This document shows, piece by piece, positions 5,150 through 28,684 of a stretch of 64,000 nucleotides of DNA (the stretch's first letter is position 1; each line of letters opens with the position of its first letter). This stretch comes from Ramlibacter pallidus (lineage in GTDB: Bacteria; Pseudomonadota; Gammaproteobacteria; Burkholderiales; Burkholderiaceae_C): assembly GCF_015070875.1 (NCBI RefSeq), contig NZ_JADDIV010000001.1:279144-343143 (forward strand), written 5' to 3'. The position numbers were made by a program, and so were the translations under genes. The notes beneath the pieces are model-generated. The model was not told where the DNA came from, did not search any database, and saw only the letters and a list, made by a program, of their open reading frames with translations.

Positions 5150-7032
5150 GCGTCCTCGAAAGTCACCAACACCTGCGACGTGGCCACCTGCTGGCCCGCC
5201 TCCACATGCAGCGATCGCACCTTGCCGTCGCGGGCTGCCGCGAGCACGTGCTCCAGCTTCATCGATTCCAGCACCAGCAGCGGATCCCCCTTGCGCACGG
5301 CGGAACCCGCGCGCGCGTGCAGCGCCACCACCTTCCCGTTGAAGGGCGCGCGCAGTTCGTTCGCGCCGGCGCCGGCGCCGCTGCCCGCGGGCGGGTCGAA
5401 GGACGCATCCTGCAGGAAAAGGTCGACGGCACCGACCTGGACGTGCCAGTGGCCCGTGCCCAGCGACACCACCTGCGCCTGCCCCGCGCTCACGCCTTCG
5501 GCCTCGCGGACCGGCACATCGAACTGCGTGCCGCGGTGCCGGATGCGCAGCGGCCGCGTGAAGGGCGACGGCAGCGCCGGGGCGGCGCCGTGCGGCAGCA
5601 GCGTGCAGAACGCGGCCTCCGCCGCGGCCCCGAACTCCTCCTGCTGCAGGTGGTGGCGCAGCGAAGCGCCATGCTCGTCGAGGAAGGGAACGAGGGCGTT
5701 GCCGTCCGTGAACACGGGATGGCGCAGGCAGGCCGCCAGCATGCGGCGGTTGGTGGGCAGGCCCAGGACGTGCAGGCGGTCGAGGGCGGCCGCGAGCCTG
5801 GCGATGGCTTCACCGCGCGTGGACGCGTGCGACACCAGCTTGCCGAGCATGGAGTCGTAGTAGGGCGGGACCTCCAGGCCCTCGAAGAGGGCGTGGTCGA
5901 AGCGCAGGGCCGGGGCGGCCACGGTGCTTCCTGCGGCCCCGCCCCGACCCTCCCCCAGCGGGGGAGGGAGGAACTTCAGGACGGTCCCGGCGTGCGGCCG
6001 GAAGTCCTCGTCCTCGGCGCAGAGGCGCACCTCGATCGCATGCCCGGTGAAGCGCACTTCGCTTTGCCGCTTCGGCAGCCGCTCGCCCATGGCGATGCGC
6101 AGTTGCCATTCGACGAGGTCGAGCCCCGTGACCATCTCGGTCACGGGGTGCTCCACCTGCAGCCGCGTGTTCATCTCCATCAGGTAGAACTCGCCGCCTT
6201 CCAGCAGGAACTCCACCGTGCCCGCGCCCAGGTAGCCGCAGGCCCGCGCCAGTTCCACGGCGCACAGGCCCATGGTCTGGCGCAGCTCGCTCGTGAGCGC
6301 CGGGCTGGGCGTTTCCTCGATGATCTTCTGGTGGCGGCGCTGCACCGAGCAGTCGCGCTCGCCCAGGTGGATGCAGTTGCCGTGCATGTCGGCAAAGACC
6401 TGGATCTCGACGTGGCGCGGCGCAAGCAGCGCGCGTTCCAGCAGCAGGTCGCCGCTGCCGAAAGCCGACTCCGCCTCCGAGCGCGCCGACCGCAGCGCGG
6501 GCAGCAGCTGGCCCGCCTCGGTCACCAGGCGCATGCCGCGCCCGCCACCGCCCGCGGCCGCCTTGACCATCAGCGGGAAGCCGATGGCGCCGGCCTCGTG
6601 CACCAGGCGCTCGTCCGACTGGTCCTCGCCCTGGTACCCGGGCAGGCAGGGAATGGCCCGCGCCTGCGCAAGCGCCTTCGCGCGCGACTTGTTGCCCAGC
6701 GTGCGGATGGCCGCGGCGGGCGGGCCGACCCACAGCAGGCCGGCGTCTTCCACGGCCTGGGCGAACTCGGCGTTCTCGCTGAGGAAACCGTAACCGGGGT
6801 GGATCGCATCGGCACCCGCCTGCCGCGCAGCGGCCACCAGCTTGTCGATGCGGAGGTAGGAGTCCGCGGAGGTGCTGCCGCCCAGCGGCACCGCGAAGGT
6901 CGCCTCGCGCACGTGCAGCGCGGACGCGTCCGGCTGCGCATACACCGCCACGGTCTCCAGCCCCATGCGGTGCGCGGTGCGGAAGATGCGCCTGGCGATC
7001 TCTCCGCGATTGGCGACCAGCAGGCGCTTCAT
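5146..7032 (-). CDS. Acyl-CoA carboxylase alpha subunit (biotin carboxylase + BCCP)
   Basis: ATP-dependent carboxylation of biotin, transferred to an acyl-CoA by the partner subunit at 8225-9877. The 628-residue chain has the biotin carboxylase N-domain (MKRLLVANRGEIARRIFR), the ATP-grasp glycine loop GGGGRGM near residue 161, the active-site segment EMNTRLQVEHPVTE, and a C-terminal biotinyl domain with ESMKLEH (biotinylated Lys592). This layout is that of methylcrotonyl-CoA and geranyl-CoA carboxylase alpha subunits. Residues about 354-365 (PPPLGEGRGGAA) are coded by a copy of the GC-rich palindrome found elsewhere in this window, an in-frame insertion between the biotin carboxylase C-terminal strands. 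Both gene ends overlap or nearly touch neighbours. Confidence 0.93.
   Translation of the reverse strand: MKRLLVANRGEIARRIFRTAHRMGLETVAVYAQPDASALHVREATFAVPLGGSTSADSYLRIDKLVAAARQAGADAIHPGYGFLSENAEFAQAVEDAGLLWVGPPAAAIRTLGNKSRAKALAQARAIPCLPGYQGEDQSDERLVHEAGAIGFPLMVKAAAGGGGRGMRLVTEAGQLLPALRSARSEAESAFGSGDLLLERALLAPRHVEIQVFADMHGNCIHLGERDCSVQRRHQKIIEETPSPALTSELRQTMGLCAVELARACGYLGAGTVEFLLEGGEFYLMEMNTRLQVEHPVTEMVTGLDLVEWQLRIAMGERLPKRQSEVRFTGHAIEVRLCAEDEDFRPHAGTVLKFLPPPLGEGRGGAAGSTVAAPALRFDHALFEGLEVPPYYDSMLGKLVSHASTRGEAIARLAAALDRLHVLGLPTNRRMLAACLRHPVFTDGNALVPFLDEHGASLRHHLQQEEFGAAAEAAFCTLLPHGAAPALPSPFTRPLRIRHRGTQFDVPVREAEGVSAGQAQVVSLGTGHWHVQVGAVDLFLQDASFDPPAGSGAGAGANELRAPFNGKVVALHARAGSAVRKGDPLLVLESMKLEHVLAAARDGKVRSLHVEAGQQVATSQVLVTFEDA
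5948..5968. repeat. GC-rich palindrome inside the alpha-subunit gene
   Basis: CCCTCCCCC-AGC-GGGGGAGGG is a perfect hairpin within the coding sequence of the biotin carboxylase. It is a single copy of the unit found in pairs at 9006, 24341, 25665/26079 and 28590. The insertion keeps the reading frame and codes for PPPLGEGRGG. Confidence 0.85.
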
Positions 7033-8224: not shown

Positions 8225-9877
8225 TCACATGCGGGCCACGCCGAACTGCATGGGCCGCGGTTGCGCCGCTTCGCCTTCGGCGATGGTGTCCAGGCAGAAC
8301 GCCAGCACCGCCCGCGTGTCGCGCGGGTCGATCACGCCGTCGTCCAGCAGCAGGCCCGACGTGTAGAAGGCGTCCGCCTGCGACTCGAACACCTGCACGA
8401 TCTTGTCGAACTGCGCCTTCGCCTGCACCGGGTCGGGCCGCTGCCCCTTGCGCCCGTGCGCCGCCTCGGTGACGATCTGCATGGTGCGCGCGGCCTGCTC
8501 GCCGCCCATCACGGCCGTGCGCGCGCTCGGCCAGCTGAAAAGGAAGCGCGGCGCGTAGCCGCGGCCGCACATGCCGTAATTGCCCGCGCCGAAGGAGGCG
8601 CCGCACTGGATGGTGAGCTGGGGCACGGTGGCGTTCGTCACGGCCTGGATCATCTTGCTGCCGTGCTTGATCATGCCGCCCTGCTCGCTCTCCCGGCCCA
8701 CCATGTAGCCGGTGGTGTTCTGCAGGTACACGATGGGGTGGCCCAGCTGGCACATCCACTGGATGAAGTGGGTGGCCTTGTTGGCGCCCGGCACGTCGAT
8801 GGGCCCGTTGTTGCTGACGAAGCCGACCGCGTGCCCGCCGATGCGGCCTTGCGCGCACAGCGTCGCGGCGCCGTACAGCGGCTTGAATTCGAGGATGCCG
8901 TCGTCGACGAGGCGCACCATCACCTCGCGCATGTCGACGGGTTCGCGCAGGTTGGCAGGCATGAGGGTAAGGAGGTCTTCACGCTGGGGAGCGCCCCCAC
9001 CCCAACCCTCCCCCGGAGGGGGAGGGAGCGAGGCAGTCACCCTCCCCCCTTGGGGGAGGGCCGGGGTGGGGGCACGCCCCAGCCGCCCCACCACCTCCCG
9101 CGCGATCCCCAGCGCATGCCGGTCATCCTCCGCCAGGTACTCGCCCAGCCCCGACATCGCGGTGTGCATCTCCGCCCCGCCCAGCTCCTCCTCCGTCGCG
9201 ACCTCGCCGGTGGCGGCTTTCAGCAACGGCGGGCCGGCGAGGAAGGCGCGCGAGCGGCCCCGCACCATGATGACGACGTCGCTCAACCCCGGCATGTAGG
9301 CGCCGCCGGCCGTGCCCGACCCGTGCTGCACGGTGATGACGGGGATGCCCGCGGCCGACAGGCGCGCGAGGTTGCGGAACAGCGCGCCGCCCTGCACGAA
9401 ACCTTCGACGCGGTAGCGCATCAGGTTGGCGCCGGCGCTTTCCACCAGGTGCAGGAACGGCAGCCGGTTCTGCAGCGCGATCTCCTGCACGCGCAGGATC
9501 TTCTCCAGCCCCATCGGCTGGATGGCGCCGGCGTCGATGCCCGAGTCGCTCGCCACCACCATGCAGCGCACGCCGCGCACGAAGCCGATGCCGGCCACCA
9601 CGCCGCCGCCGGGCACCGAGGCATCGGGCTCCCGGGCGTCCTGCAGGTACCCCGCCAGCGTGCACAAGGGCAGGTAGGGCGTGCCCGGGTCCAGCAGCAG
9701 CCCGACCCGCTCGCGGGGCAGCAACTGCCCGCGCTTCTCGAACACCGCGCGCGCCTCGGCCGACCTCTCCGCCGCGCGCTGCTCCAGCGCGCGCAGCTGG
9801 CCCACGCGCGCCAGCATGGCCTCGCGCCGCTGGCGGGCGAGCGGTCCTTGCGCGTTCCAGGCCGATGCGAAGTTCAT
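8225..9877 (-). CDS. Acyl-CoA carboxylase beta subunit (carboxyltransferase)
   Basis: Transfers carboxyl from carboxybiotin to an acyl-CoA. The 550-residue chain contains the two crotonase-like halves of the family, with VQHGSGTAGGAYMPGLSDVV in the N-terminal half and QCGASFGAGNYGMCGRGY, an oxyanion-hole region, in the C-terminal half. This layout matches methylcrotonyl- and geranyl-CoA carboxylase beta subunits. Residues about 268-296 are unrelated to the family: they are proline/glycine-rich (APTPALPQGGR, then PPPPGEGWGGG) and are coded by a pair of GC-rich palindromes inserted in frame at the junction of the two halves. The gene follows the SDR with a four-base overlap and precedes the acyl-CoA dehydrogenase by 12 bases. 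Confidence 0.92.
   Translation of the reverse strand: MNFASAWNAQGPLARQRREAMLARVGQLRALEQRAAERSAEARAVFEKRGQLLPRERVGLLLDPGTPYLPLCTLAGYLQDAREPDASVPGGGVVAGIGFVRGVRCMVVASDSGIDAGAIQPMGLEKILRVQEIALQNRLPFLHLVESAGANLMRYRVEGFVQGGALFRNLARLSAAGIPVITVQHGSGTAGGAYMPGLSDVVIMVRGRSRAFLAGPPLLKAATGEVATEEELGGAEMHTAMSGLGEYLAEDDRHALGIAREVVGRLGRAPTPALPQGGRVTASLPPPPGEGWGGGAPQREDLLTLMPANLREPVDMREVMVRLVDDGILEFKPLYGAATLCAQGRIGGHAVGFVSNNGPIDVPGANKATHFIQWMCQLGHPIVYLQNTTGYMVGRESEQGGMIKHGSKMIQAVTNATVPQLTIQCGASFGAGNYGMCGRGYAPRFLFSWPSARTAVMGGEQAARTMQIVTEAAHGRKGQRPDPVQAKAQFDKIVQVFESQADAFYTSGLLLDDGVIDPRDTRAVLAFCLDTIAEGEAAQPRPMQFGVARM
8991..9077. repeat. Paired GC-rich palindromes inside the beta-subunit gene
   Basis: Two hairpin units, at 9006-9026 (CCCTCCCCCGGAGGGGGAGGG) and 9040-9060, face each other with GCCCCCACCCC-like sequence on the outside. 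The whole 87-base insertion keeps the reading frame. The arrangement is opposite to that at 24341 and 28590, where the GGGGTGGGGGC parts face inwards. Confidence 0.85.
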
Positions 9878-24305: not shown

Positions 24306-24340
24306 GCTTACTCCTCTCGTTGCTGTCTTCTTTTCTTCCT

Positions 24341-24423
24341 CCCTCCCCCTCTGGGGGAGGGTCGGGGTGGGGGCACTCGGTCGGCCGCGCGCCCCCATCC
24401 CTTCCTTCCCCCAGAGGGGGAAG
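24341..24423. repeat. Paired GC-rich palindromes between thiolase and hydrolase genes
   Basis: Two hairpins, CCCTCCCCCTCTGGGGGAGGG at 24341-24361 and a degenerate copy CCTTCCCCCAGAGGGGGAAGG at 24403-24423, are inverted to each other, with GGGGTGGGGGC and GCCCCCATCCC facing inwards. The 83-base unit fills most of the intergenic region. It has the same length and layout as the unit at 28590-28672. Confidence 0.85.
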
Positions 24424-24434
24424 GAAAAAATCCG

Positions 24435-25643
24435 TCACACGCGCTCGAAGATCCCCGCCGCGCCCTGCCCCATGCCGACGCACATCGTCACCATCCCGTA
24501 CTTCAGGTTGTTGCGGCGCAGGGCGTGCACCACGGTGGCGGAACGGATCGCGCCGGTGGCGCCCAGCGGGTGGCCCAGGGCGATCGCGCCGCCCATGGGA
24601 TTGATCTTGCTGGCGTCCAGGCCCAGTTCGCGGATCACGGCGAGCGACTGCGCGGCGAAGGCCTCGTTCAGCTCGAACCAGTCGATGTCTTCCTGCTTCA
24701 GGCCGGCGGACTTGAGCGCGGCGGGGATCGCCTGGATCGGGCCGATGCCCATGATGTGCGGCGGCACGCCGCGGCTGGCGTAGCTGACGAAGCGCGCGAG
24801 CGGCTGCAGGTTGAAGCGCTTGATGGCCGCCTCGCTGGCGATGATCAGCGCGCCGGCGCCGTCGGAGGTCTGCGAGCTGTTGCCGGCCGTGACGCTGCCG
24901 CGCGCGGCGAACACCGGGCGCAGCTTGCCCAGCGCCTCGAGGGTGGTGTCCGGGCGCGGGCCTTCGTCGAGCTTCACCGTGTGGGTGTCGATCGCGACTT
25001 CGGCGGATTCGAGGTCCAGCTGGCGCTCCTCGACCTGCACGGCGGTCATCTCGTCGGCGAACAGGCCGGCCTGCTGCGCCTTCACGGCGCGCTGGTGCGA
25101 GGCCAGGGCGAAGGCGTCCTGGTCTTCCCGGCTCACCTTGTATTGCTGCGCCACCTTCTCGGCGGTGAGGCCCATGCCGTAGGCGATGCCGTAGTTGCCG
25201 ATGTCGTCGGGGTCGCGGAAGATCTCCGGCGACAGCGAGGGCGTGTTGCCCATCATCGGCACCATGCTCATGCTCTCGGTGCCGGCGGCGATCATCACGT
25301 CGGCCTCGCCGACCCGGATGCGGTCGGCGGCCATCTGCACCGCGGCCAGGCCGGAGGCGCAGAAGCGGTTGACGGTGATGCCGCCCACGCTCTTGGGCAG
25401 CCCGGCGAGCACCGCGCCGACGCGCGCCACGTTCAGGCCCTGCGGCCCTTCGGGAATCGCGCAGCCGCAGATCAGGTCTTCGATGGCGTTCGGGTCGAGG
25501 TTCGGCACCTGCGCCAGCGCCGCCTTCAGCACCGTGGCCAGCAGGTCGTCGGGCCGGGTGTTGCGGAAGAAGCCCTTGTGCGAACGCCCGATGGGCGTGC
25601 GCGTGGCGGCGACGATGTAGGCGTCCTGGAGTTGCTTGGTCAT
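24435..25643 (-). CDS. Acetyl-CoA C-acyltransferase (3-ketoacyl-CoA thiolase)
   Basis: Cleaves 3-ketoacyl-CoA to acetyl-CoA and a shortened acyl-CoA, the last step of beta-oxidation. The 402-residue protein has all thiolase active-site elements: nucleophile Cys95 in VNRFCASGLAAV, His358 in ALGHPLGATGA, and Cys388 in MCVGMGQGAAG, plus NEAFAAQ. The start at 25641-25643 is shared by four bases with the stop of the DUF559 gene, so that gene's insertion put it upstream and in translational contact. It is a fadA-type partner of the bifunctional enzyme at 26107. Confidence 0.93.
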   Translation of the reverse strand: MTKQLQDAYIVAATRTPIGRSHKGFFRNTRPDDLLATVLKAALAQVPNLDPNAIEDLICGCAIPEGPQGLNVARVGAVLAGLPKSVGGITVNRFCASGLAAVQMAADRIRVGEADVMIAAGTESMSMVPMMGNTPSLSPEIFRDPDDIGNYGIAYGMGLTAEKVAQQYKVSREDQDAFALASHQRAVKAQQAGLFADEMTAVQVEERQLDLESAEVAIDTHTVKLDEGPRPDTTLEALGKLRPVFAARGSVTAGNSSQTSDGAGALIIASEAAIKRFNLQPLARFVSYASRGVPPHIMGIGPIQAIPAALKSAGLKQEDIDWFELNEAFAAQSLAVIRELGLDASKINPMGGAIALGHPLGATGAIRSATVVHALRRNNLKYGMVTMCVGMGQGAAGIFERV

Positions 25644-26056
25644 GGTTGGTTCCTGGTATTCACTCCCTCCCCCTCTGGGGGAGGGCTGGGGTGGGGGCAC
25701 GCGGCCCCCAACGCCTGCAATTGGTCGAGGATGGACTGGCGTACGCCGTCCAAATTCGTCAGTGCTGCGTTGCTCGGAAATCGCAGCACCGCAAAGCCGT
25801 GGGCGCGAAAGAAGCCATCTCGCCGGCCGTCGTAATCGACTTGCCGCTCGTGCTGGGACCCATCGAGCTCCACGATCAGCTTGGGGGCGAGGCAGGCGAA
25901 GTCCGCGATGTAGTTGCCGAGAGGGTGCTGACGGCGGAACTTCACTCCGAGTTGCTCGCCACGCAGGCCAGACCAGAGCTTGCGCTCGGAATCCGTCATC
26001 TCGCGCCGAAGCACGCGCGCGTTGCGCTGGGCCGTCGATGTGGACTGGTTCTGCAT
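25640..26056 (-). CDS. DUF559 endonuclease-like protein
   Basis: A 138-residue Vsr/restriction-endonuclease-fold protein. DUF559 conserved parts are visible: LRREMTDSERKLWSGLRGEQ at the N-terminus, then GVKFRRQHPLGNYIADFACL with a catalytic-type Asp, and LIVELDGSQH with Glu-x-Asp, followed by the helix DYDGRRDGFFRAHGFAVLRF. The C-terminal PHPSPPPEGEGVNTRNQP is coded mostly by the left inverted repeat and is not part of the domain. No ribosome binding site was recognised; the gene begins 7 bases inside the right inverted repeat. It is likely the only gene of a small mobile unit (25665-26099). Activity as a nuclease is inferred from the family. Confidence 0.88.
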   Translation of the reverse strand: MQNQSTSTAQRNARVLRREMTDSERKLWSGLRGEQLGVKFRRQHPLGNYIADFACLAPKLIVELDGSQHERQVDYDGRRDGFFRAHGFAVLRFPSNAALTNLDGVRQSILDQLQALGAACPHPSPPPEGEGVNTRNQP

Positions 26057-26099
26057 GCGTGGTGTGCCCCCACCCCAGCCCTCCCCCAGAGGGGGAGGG
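25665..26099. mobile_element. Inverted-repeat-bounded element carrying the DUF559 gene
   Basis: The 36-base sequence at 25665-25700 (hairpin CCCTCCCCCTCTGGGGGAGGG followed by CTGGGGTGGGGGCAC) recurs as an exact reverse complement at 26064-26099. The 363 bases between them hold almost only the DUF559 gene. Pairs of the same repeats with short spacers occur at 24341 and 28590, as if the gene had been lost from them. No target-site duplication is evident at the borders. The element resembles a tiny transposon with internal nuclease, although the mechanism is unknown. Confidence 0.7.
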
Positions 26100-26106
26100 A
26101 GCAGGG

Positions 26107-28506
26107 TCAGTTCCGAACAGGCTTCCCCGTGCTCAGCATCCCCAGGATCCGCTCCTGCGTCTTCGGGTGCTGCACCAGCTCGCAGAAGGCCCTGCGCTCC
26201 AGCGTCATCAGGTACTCCTCGTTCACCAGCTGGTTCGCGTCCACGTCGCCCCCGGTCACCACGTTGGCGATCAGGCCGGCGATGCGGAAGTCGTGCTGGC
26301 TGATGAAGCCGCCGTCGCGCATGTTGATCAGCTGGCCCAGGATCGTCGCCTTGCCGCTGCGGCCCGCCACCGGGAACAGGCGCTTGTGCGGCGGACGGTA
26401 GCCGGCATCGAACATCGACTTGGCCTGCTGCACAGCGACGTAGAGCAGTTCGTCCTTGTTCGGGACGATCACGTCGCTCTCCAGCAGGTAGCCGATCTTG
26501 CGCGACTCGATCGCGCTGGTGCCCACCTTGGCCATGGCCGCGGCCGTGAAGCCCTCGGTCAGGAACTTCAGCAGCTCCTTGTCCATGCTGTGCTGCGCGT
26601 TCTCCGCCGCGCGGCGCGCGATGTAGGTCAGGCCGCCCGCGCCCGGCACCAGGCCGACGCCGACCTCCACCAGGCCGATGTAGCTTTCCATCGCGGCGAC
26701 GCGCTTGGCCGAATACAGGCCCAGCTCACAGCCGCCGCCCAGCGCCAGGCCGCGGATGGCGGACACCACCGGCACGCTGGCATAGCGCAGGCGCAGCATG
26801 GTCTGCTGCATGAAGCCCTCGGCATCCTCGATGGCCGCGACGCCGACGGCGATGAAGGCCGGCAGCGTGGACTCGAGGTCGGCGCCGGCGCTGAAGGGCT
26901 CGTCGCCCGACCAGATCACCAGGCCCTCGTAGTCCTTCTCCGCCATCTCGACCGCCTGCTGCAGCCCTTCGCAGACCTCGGGGCTGATGACGTGCATCTT
27001 GGTCTTGAGGCTGCAGATGAGGACCTCGTCGTCCAGCGTCCAGAGACGCAGGTTCTTGTCCTCGTGCAGCGTGGTGCCCGCGGTTTCGAAGCGCGGACCG
27101 GCCTCGCCGCGCAGCAGTTCGGGGAACAGCTGGCGCTGGTAGACCGGCAGCACGCGGCGCGGCTGGAACTTGCCGGTGGTCGGGTTGAACGAGCCCTGTT
27201 CGGTGTGCACGCCGCCCGCATCCGCGACGGGACCCTTGAACACCCAGGCCGGCAGCGGCGCCTTCGACAACGCCTTGCCCGCATCGATGTCTTCCTGGAT
27301 CCATTGCGCCACCTGCAGCCAGCCGGCTTCCTGCCACAGCTCGAACGGGCCCTGCTTCATGCCGAAGCCCCAGCGCATGGCCTGGTCGACGTCCCGCGCG
27401 GTCTCGGCGATGGTCGCCAGGTGCACGGCGGCGTAGTGGAAGCTGTTGCGCAGGATGGACCAGAGGAACTGGCCCTGCGGGCCGGTGGCATTGCGCAGCA
27501 GCTTCAGGCGCTCGGCGGCCGGCTTCTTCAGCATGCGGCCGTAGACCTCGTCGGCCTTCTGGCCGGCCGGCACGTAGCTTTCGCTTTCCAGCTCGAAGCG
27601 CAGGATGTCCCGCCCGGCCTTCTTGAAGAAGCCCGCCTTGGACTTCTGCCCCAGGTGGCCCTTCTCCAGCAGCTTGGTCAGCACGGCCGGCGTGCCGAAG
27701 CTCGAATAGAACGGGTCGGTCTCGGGCGACAGCGTGTCCTGCAGCGTCTTCATGACGTGGGCCATGGTGTCCAGGCCGACCACGTCCGCGGTGCGGAAGG
27801 TGCCGCTGGACGCGCGGCCCAGCTTCTTGCCGGTGAGGTCGTCGACCACGTCGAAGGTCAGGCCGAACTTCTCGACCTCGCGCATCGTGCCCAGCATGCC
27901 GGCGATGCCGACGCGGTTGGCGATGAAGTTGGGCGTGTCCTTGGCGCGCACGACCCCCTTGCCCAGGCCGCTGGTGACGAAGGTCTCCAGGTCGTCCAGG
28001 ATCTCCGGCTTCGTCGTCGGGGTCGGGATCAGCTCCACCAGGTACATGTACCGCGGCGGGTTGAAGAAGTGGATGCCGCAGAACCGGGGCTTGATCGCCT
28101 CCGGCAGCGCCTCGGACATCTTCGTGATCGACAGGCCGGACGTGTTGGATGCGACGATGGCGTGCTTCGCCACGTGCGGCGCGATCTTCTTGTACAGGTC
28201 CAGCTTCCAGTCCATGCGCTCGGCGATCGCCTCGATCACCAGGTCGCATTCGCCCAGCAGGGACAGGTGCTCTTCATAGTTCGCCTGCTGGATCAGCGCG
28301 GCGTCCTCCGGCACGCCCAGCGGCGACGGCTTGAGCTTCTTCAGGCCTTCGACGGCCTTCGTGACCACGCCGTTCTTCGGGCCTTCCTTGGCGGGCAGGT
28401 CGAACAGCACCACCGGCACCTTCACGTTGACCAGGTGCGCGGCGATCTGCGCGCCCATCACGCCGGCGCCGAGCACGGCCACCTTCTTCACCTGGAAGCG
28501 GTTCAT
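26107..28506 (-). CDS. Bifunctional 3-hydroxyacyl-CoA dehydrogenase/enoyl-CoA hydratase (FadN/FadB-like)
   Basis: A 799-residue beta-oxidation enzyme. The N-terminal half is the NAD-dependent 3-hydroxyacyl-CoA dehydrogenase (VAVLGAGVMGAQIAAHLVN, then IHFFNPPRYMYLVELIPTP). The C-terminal half is the crotonase (SAGADLES near residue 535, LALGGGCELGLYSAKRVAAM near 585, EVGVGLVPGAGGL). The dehydrogenase-before-hydratase order and length are those of FadN-type proteins and differ from E. coli FadB. It lies upstream of the thiolase, from which it is separated by the inserted DUF559 element. Confidence 0.92.
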   Translation of the reverse strand: MNRFQVKKVAVLGAGVMGAQIAAHLVNVKVPVVLFDLPAKEGPKNGVVTKAVEGLKKLKPSPLGVPEDAALIQQANYEEHLSLLGECDLVIEAIAERMDWKLDLYKKIAPHVAKHAIVASNTSGLSITKMSEALPEAIKPRFCGIHFFNPPRYMYLVELIPTPTTKPEILDDLETFVTSGLGKGVVRAKDTPNFIANRVGIAGMLGTMREVEKFGLTFDVVDDLTGKKLGRASSGTFRTADVVGLDTMAHVMKTLQDTLSPETDPFYSSFGTPAVLTKLLEKGHLGQKSKAGFFKKAGRDILRFELESESYVPAGQKADEVYGRMLKKPAAERLKLLRNATGPQGQFLWSILRNSFHYAAVHLATIAETARDVDQAMRWGFGMKQGPFELWQEAGWLQVAQWIQEDIDAGKALSKAPLPAWVFKGPVADAGGVHTEQGSFNPTTGKFQPRRVLPVYQRQLFPELLRGEAGPRFETAGTTLHEDKNLRLWTLDDEVLICSLKTKMHVISPEVCEGLQQAVEMAEKDYEGLVIWSGDEPFSAGADLESTLPAFIAVGVAAIEDAEGFMQQTMLRLRYASVPVVSAIRGLALGGGCELGLYSAKRVAAMESYIGLVEVGVGLVPGAGGLTYIARRAAENAQHSMDKELLKFLTEGFTAAAMAKVGTSAIESRKIGYLLESDVIVPNKDELLYVAVQQAKSMFDAGYRPPHKRLFPVAGRSGKATILGQLINMRDGGFISQHDFRIAGLIANVVTGGDVDANQLVNEEYLMTLERRAFCELVQHPKTQERILGMLSTGKPVRN

Positions 28507-28589
28507 CGTTCTTGCCTTCCCTTGCGCCGACGGCGCGCTGCCGGAACGTTCGTCTTGATCTTTGTACACGGGAACTCCTGATTCTTGCT

Positions 28590-28672
28590 CCCTCCCCCTC
28601 TGGGGGAGGGTTGGGATGGGGGCGCTGCGACCGCCGGGCGCCCCCACCCTGCCCTCCCCCAGAGGGGGAGGG
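28590..28672. repeat. Paired GC-rich palindromes between fadN and DUF2147 genes
   Basis: Hairpins at 28590-28610 (CCCTCCCCCTCTGGGGGAGGG) and 28652-28672 (CCCTCCCCCAGAGGGGGAGGG) are exact reverse complements and face inwards through TTGGGATGGGGGCGC and GCGCCCCCACCC. The unit is 83 bases long, as at 24341. It lies between two genes of the same strand, in a 178-base gap. Confidence 0.88.
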
Positions 28673-28684
28673 GAAAAAAAGCGT

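Follow-up and report, generated by a model that had tools for sequence, protein, structure and literature searches.

The 64,000-nucleotide stretch of Ramlibacter pallidus DNA that we analysed (the window, taken at its full length) contains a gene for a DUF559 nuclease of predicted Vsr fold, framed by a perfect inverted repeat. The two arms, at 25663–25700 on the plus strand and 26064–26101 on the minus strand, are each 38 nt long, 100% complementary and spaced by 363 nt, and the sole open reading frame between them (25640–26056, minus strand) encodes a 138-amino-acid protein that matches the profile PF04480 (DUF559) at E 2e-36 over profile positions 3–109 of 109, which fulfils membership of the family. 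Both arms are triplex-hairpin units of the kind described below: the upstream one ends 7 nt before the ATG of the DUF559 gene, and the downstream one overlaps the 3' end of the reading frame and codes for the C-terminal tail of the protein. The DUF559 stop codon shares the bases ATGA with the ATG of a host thiolase gene (24435–25643, minus strand), which is the neighbour on one side of the insertion site; on the other side, and again on the strand of the DUF559 gene, lies a host 3-hydroxyacyl-CoA dehydrogenase/enoyl-CoA hydratase gene (26107–28506, minus strand). An initial annotation had described exact inverted repeats enclosing nothing but a DUF559 gene whose C-terminus is coded within one of them, and every part of this description was borne out, the arms being slightly longer than stated. 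The genome (G000, 4.31 Mb) carries just this one DUF559 gene. No cytosine methylase gene, the companion expected of a Vsr mismatch-repair system, lies beside it at this locus; a scan of five neighbouring genes showed metabolic genes and genes of unknown function.

Copies of the repeat without the gene occur elsewhere in the window. Two are inverted pairs of units that resemble MITEs or REPINs, one at 24339–24427 (cores at 24341, plus strand, and 24424, minus strand) and the other at 28586–28674 (cores at 28590, plus strand, with one triad mismatch, and 28672, minus strand). Both had been pointed out in the initial annotation and both are present, although complementarity between their arms is incomplete (83% and 88%, respectively); as single strands, their folding beats that of 200 out of 200 shuffled sequences (z -5.4 and -8.5). 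Two further units with their tails outward lie at 8994–9072 (cores at 9026, minus strand, and 9040, plus strand), and a lone unit with one triad mismatch at 5937–5968 on the minus strand. Searching both strands of the window for the 17-nt hairpin core with up to three mismatches returned 17 matches at nine sites, where 0.42 matches were expected. A search for copies across the genome, which the initial annotation had proposed, found 35 cores with at most one mismatch and none in the reversed control. Rfam returned only sub-threshold matches to the hairpins. Both gene-less pairs, like both 38-nt arms, are free of stop codons in all six frames, so that they can lengthen a reading frame or run into one without terminating it.

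Each unit consists of a hairpin and a tail, and the tail obeys reverse-Hoogsteen rules with the stem: when the purine strand of the stem, read 3' to 5', is set against the tail, read 5' to 3', the triads are G*G:C, A*A:T and T*A:T. Perfect triads were found in 51 of 83 distinct units; the direct orientation gave 14, and shuffled tails averaged 1.3 (maximum 6; 300 shuffles). This count excludes 81 of 260 arms that had no hairpin with enough tail within the trimmed arm and, as in the arm comparisons below, rests on distinct loci only (12 of 142 flanked elements were duplicate loci and were removed). The window itself holds nine units with at most one triad mismatch, the reversed window none. At the variable position of the A-type units, to which those of the window belong, stem and tail read G-G in 55 cases, A-A in 94, G-A in three and A-G in none, with eight involving T; these cases fall into two subfamilies and hence represent fewer independent events. 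A G-quadruplex was considered as the conserved structure and rejected: four G-runs occur in just 80 of 230 distinct arms (3.1 when shuffled), so that the triplex rule, set beside this figure, covers more of the units. Protein-site symmetry was ruled out as an account of the tail as well, since stem and tail mirror each other and are not inverted. By eye, the turn between stem and third strand appears to have been swapped for a separate stem-loop at two loci (L110, in the left arm upstream of position 329, and L290), beyond which the triad rule seems to resume.

The arrangement at this locus recurs among relatives of the gene. Inverted repeats scoring at least 20 flank 57 of 80 DUF559 relatives (the best 80 of 97 found, three of them near contig ends), whereas none of 3,698 control placements of identical geometry, slid along the same loci, met this score. 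In samples chosen without regard to repeats, flanking inverted repeats were present at 19 of 23 full-length loci of the genus and at 24 of 29 loci of the family, the latter being those read among 33 full-length matches outside the window's genome. Across the Pseudomonadota, at a score of at least 18, they were found at 38 of 70 loci (30 best by profile score and 40 picked by hand, multi-copy genomes included) compared with one of 258 controls. The genus, family and phylum samples overlap and their counts are not additive. From lineage to lineage the flanking repeats vary in their letters. One palindrome is, as judged by eye, translated in three different frames among relatives, which indicates conservation as DNA, not as protein, and on this ground a conserved protein tail was rejected. 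Arms belonging to the same element share more identity (92.8%) than arms taken from separate elements (89.1%; p 5e-5, 45 distinct A-type elements).

There are counterexamples, as two genomes rich in A hairpins (G286, with 151, at L159; G005, with 39, at L134) have DUF559 genes without flanking repeats. The longest inverted ends seen, about 101 nt, almost perfect and with a score of 98, enclose a DUF559 gene in another genome (L261 in G499, about 1501–1806); these ends break the simple triplex rule. Flanked DUF559 genes were also seen outside the Alpha-, Beta- and Gammaproteobacteria, in a member of the Cytophagales (L103) and one of the Deltaproteobacteria (L091), and a rumen bacterium (L095) has one as well.

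Across many bacteria, gene and hairpins tend to be present or absent together. Among 59 genomes of the genus, the median number of A hairpins is 24.5 in the 26 genomes with DUF559 and 1 in the 33 without it (p 3e-8); among 250 genomes of the family, at least four hairpins occur in 13 of 32 with a full-length gene but in only 10 of 218 without. In 398 Pseudomonadota genomes, a generic form of the hairpin is present in 81 of 108 with DUF559 and in 34 of 290 without, and at least five such hairpins in 64 and 14 of these, respectively; permutation inside the 17 mixed genera of this sample gave p 2e-5. Hairpin counts take in the copies that flank DUF559, and the reversed-pattern control gave at most one match per genome and strand. 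The generic hairpin is absent from 27 of the 108 phylum genomes despite their DUF559 gene. On a tree of the neighbouring genes, DUF559 presence switches 17 times among 55 genomes, and phylogenetically independent pairs at a threshold of 20 A and B hairpins gave 7.3 for and 0.1 against the association (median p 0.016); the median p was 0.03 at a threshold of 10 and only 0.22 at a threshold of 5. Two element types, A and B, occupy one common site, and the B share of hairpins is greater in genomes whose gene is of B type (p 0.0014, seven versus 16 genomes). This comparison covers 23 of 26 genomes: G286, G288 and G297 were left out as their flanks could not be typed, and G301 and G305 were typed on weak flanks. 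The initial annotation had held that its reading would fall if DUF559 genes never accompanied such palindromes, and the genus, family and phylum samples all point the other way.

It had likewise named a lack of empty-site alleles as refutation, and such alleles exist. Of 33 genus genomes without a full DUF559 match, the neighbour gene was found in 30 and the site could be read across in 28. At 17 of these 28 loci the gap is just 5–31 bp; the others hold DUF559 fragments at five (L170, L176, L179, L185 and L186, three detected by profile and two by eye), hairpin remnants at two (L177, L184) and other spacers at four. In the Comamonadaceae, 43 of the 80 relatives carry the DUF559 gene at one conserved site, and such a near-constant site implies that the gene does not hop often. 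The gene-less copies were followed at 12 chosen sites of G000, ten of which could be aligned in five relatives. At nine of the ten the copy is missing from at least one relative, and at five (L008, L014, L019, L024 and L029) the spacers of some relatives hold a different or degenerate hairpin, G271 having an A-type pair of its own at L029. Copies are therefore gained and lost, and some places accumulate repeats. A search for target-site duplications, among E. coli strains and within the genus of the window, brought up none, the junctions being blurred by old sites and by identities of about 85%. In the intergenic region on the dehydrogenase side, a second palindrome family occurs at L041, L216 and L218, with ATTCCCGC-GAAG-GCGGGAAT in L041 and L218; by eye it resembles published CGTC-tagged repeats, which reportedly have no dedicated transposase (PMC3733652).

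Exchange at a single site was seen in Variovorax, where two element classes alternate between closest relatives. The near flanks are about 95% identical, the element itself about 75%. A tree of the flanks rejects a class 1 clade (p 4.8e-8) and a class 2 clade (p 1.5e-62, from five rows, with L056 apart), while the DUF559 tree supports both. All nine fixed differences between the classes, gapped columns excluded, fall at element positions -4 to 415, and none falls in the roughly 700 bp on each side. Another genus has a B-type element in one genome (G232) and an A-type in a second (G020) between flanking genes about 95% identical; here the left junction is not clean. With exchange limited to the element and the arms most similar within it, the unit acts like a discrete module and its two ends stay matched.

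The boxC/PIT/TM repeats of E. coli have been known since the 1990s. Like the units described here, they combine a pyrimidine-purine hairpin with an antiparallel third strand and at times form inverted pairs, and the three triads of their motif plan are those met by our units (PMC4666352). The E. coli motifs closely resemble the B units, and by eye the B units of relatives match the strict E. coli consensus; the A units of the window do not, their tail being GGGTGGGGG and not GGGNGAGGG (PMC4666352). The same source reports a triplex fold in vitro, with none detected by footprinting in vivo. This survey, from 2015, describes no transposase or integrase remnants and no mobility function beside the motifs, and calls their origin unclear (PMC4666352). 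The repeats and their triplex plan are thus already in print, and the nuclease partner is the new part. In a full-text literature search, which did not cover subscription papers or preprints, none of the listings suggested a link between DUF559, YcjD or COG2852 and palindromic repeats.

One published motif, no. 9, is placed between fabI and ycjD, the E. coli DUF559 gene (PMC4666352). At its 3' end, ycjD itself extends into a boxC-like unit, with a longer form in strain TC_EC10 and a shortened one in MG1655. No inverted partner is evident 5' of ycjD in E. coli, and the element looks decayed. At a query coverage of at least 80%, ycjD is present in 3,364 of 5,426 E. coli genomes. Other boxC-like places average 3.4 in 39 genomes with ycjD versus 1.8 in 21 without, a comparison made on 60 evenly spaced rows of a separate search and confounded by lineage (326 genomes had no match at all), and copies are present in ycjD-negative strains too. 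Some E. coli strains retain only one hairpin at places that hold a pair in K-12 (L330 at one locus, L331 and L332 at another), which looks like deletion between units, and between hrpB and mrcB the filled and empty alleles differ in about 15 flanking bases as well. Two E. coli strains without ycjD beside fabI (L319, 5252–7635, and L320) have an efflux operon there, in agreement with an earlier report (PMC12817139). In ETEC6 (H1/H146, NZ_CP041627.1), an IS1 element splits ycjD in two.

Fourteen residues of the protein are invariant in 48 relatives (R17, E24, W28, F40, R42, D52, F53, E63, G66, H69, D76, R79, G87 and R92), and four of these, E24, D52, H69 and D76, match the pattern E-D-x-H-D. The predicted model has a mean pLDDT of 79.8 and a pTM of 0.72, with residues 67–71 poor. 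Its best fold match among those listed is 3hrl, a DUF559 structure (Z 15.5), YcjD being of this family too; next comes the homing endonuclease I-Bth0305I (Z 11.4), which we take to be a member of the EDxHD family, and a mitochondrial ribosome protein (Z 9.0) and Vsr (Z 8.8) follow. The Vsr fold assigned in the initial annotation, of PD-(D/E)XK type, is thereby supported by the predicted model. I-Bth0305I and the DUF559 protein are alike in fold and in the E-D-x-H-D residues; they differ in that the DUF559 gene lies outside any intron or intein and is flanked by whole repeats, not by a split target. An earlier survey grouped YcjD beside Vsr (PMC1189080). A search of the PHROGs gave nothing convincing.

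The parallel drawn in the initial annotation was to REP palindromes and their RAYT transposases, with the gene-less pairs as MITE-type derivatives, and both readings fit, the cutting and spreading of the palindrome by the nuclease still being inferred. In REP/REPIN–RAYT (TnpA-REP) systems, a lone chromosomal gene sits amid two inverted palindromic units, inverted doublets that can fold into long hairpins are scattered about the genome, and gene and repeats co-occur and coevolve (PMC2817692, PMC3116915). At our locus, too, the gene lies between inverted copies of the genome's own repeat, and copy number tracks the gene. The differences are in the parts. The enzyme has a Vsr/EDxHD-type DUF559 fold and is not a tyrosine HUH (Y1) transposase, a Pfam scan of the window protein having returned DUF559 matches only; no GTAG stands at the foot of the palindrome in the window arms or in the A-type arms listed; and the units follow the triplex rule. 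With an unrelated enzyme and a triplex motif as its repeat, the element works like REP/RAYT without being a member.

Anatomy, co-occurrence, empty and decayed sites, allele exchange, matched arms and conserved fold and residues are all observed, and on this basis we think it quite probable that the element is a minimal mobile unit, a DUF559 nuclease of Vsr/EDxHD fold within inverted triplex-hairpin repeats, RAYT-like in its organization and with the gene-less copies as its non-autonomous forms. Binding, cleavage and movement by the nuclease, and copying driven by it, are inferred. The unit would fold once single-stranded, for example at a replication fork, and the nuclease would bind the folded unit and nick at or near the folded structure; host repair might then take the hairpin, once freed or displaced, or else the complete element, and copy it into a break or a homologous site, as in homing, or alternatively swap the whole element. 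With the same inferred steps, the DUF559 nuclease probably is the enzyme so far missing behind the spread of a well-known bacterial repeat family.

Other readings of the same data were weighed. The nuclease could belong to host repair, resolving triplexes or mismatches, and be kept for this reason by repeat-rich genomes, the repeats spreading by other means. Vsr, which has the DUF559 fold, is a nuclease of DNA repair. In Caulobacter, the DUF559 protein VsrA is required for the SOS response of cells without the ScmA methylase and has been modelled as a mismatch-repair nuclease (PMC12907096), so that one DUF559 protein at least seems to work on DNA in vivo. A repair role nonetheless leaves unexplained why the gene is bounded by inverted repeats that match, why arms match within an element and why exchange takes the unit as a whole, edge to edge, and we regard it as unlikely. 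We find it more doubtful still that the DUF559 gene is a trapped passenger among repeats spread by some other enzyme, or by slippage and recombination. Units do adjoin other genes, some intergenic sites differ in hairpin between relatives, and E. coli copies alter by internal deletion between units; but the absence of flanking repeats from all the control placements in the same loci, the cognate A and B types and the association within genera speak against it.

The two deep classes at a single site inside one genus might also suggest a fast-diverging allelic locus under diversifying selection, for example in defence or restriction, at which recombination between strains swaps short tracts. To this we give very little credence: the fixed class differences end at the element, the matched genome-wide repeats remain unexplained, and the PADLOC defence models returned nothing convincing (best E 0.007). 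The preferred reading remains that of a mobile unit with its own nuclease. Its broadest form, in which DUF559 is a separate class of mobile-DNA enzyme that recognises and copies triplexes, and is the source of boxC/PIT/TM in E. coli and much of the Pseudomonadota, reaching other phyla, seems to us evenly poised between true and false.

What the association offers at present is a named candidate enzyme for boxC/PIT/TM, and a role for a family of unknown function, in a form that becomes testable in E. coli K-12 and Caulobacter. A small structure-specific nuclease may also prove possible as a tool. If true, the proposal would mean that the REP/RAYT way of life was invented a second time, independently, with a DNA triplex as the object recognised.
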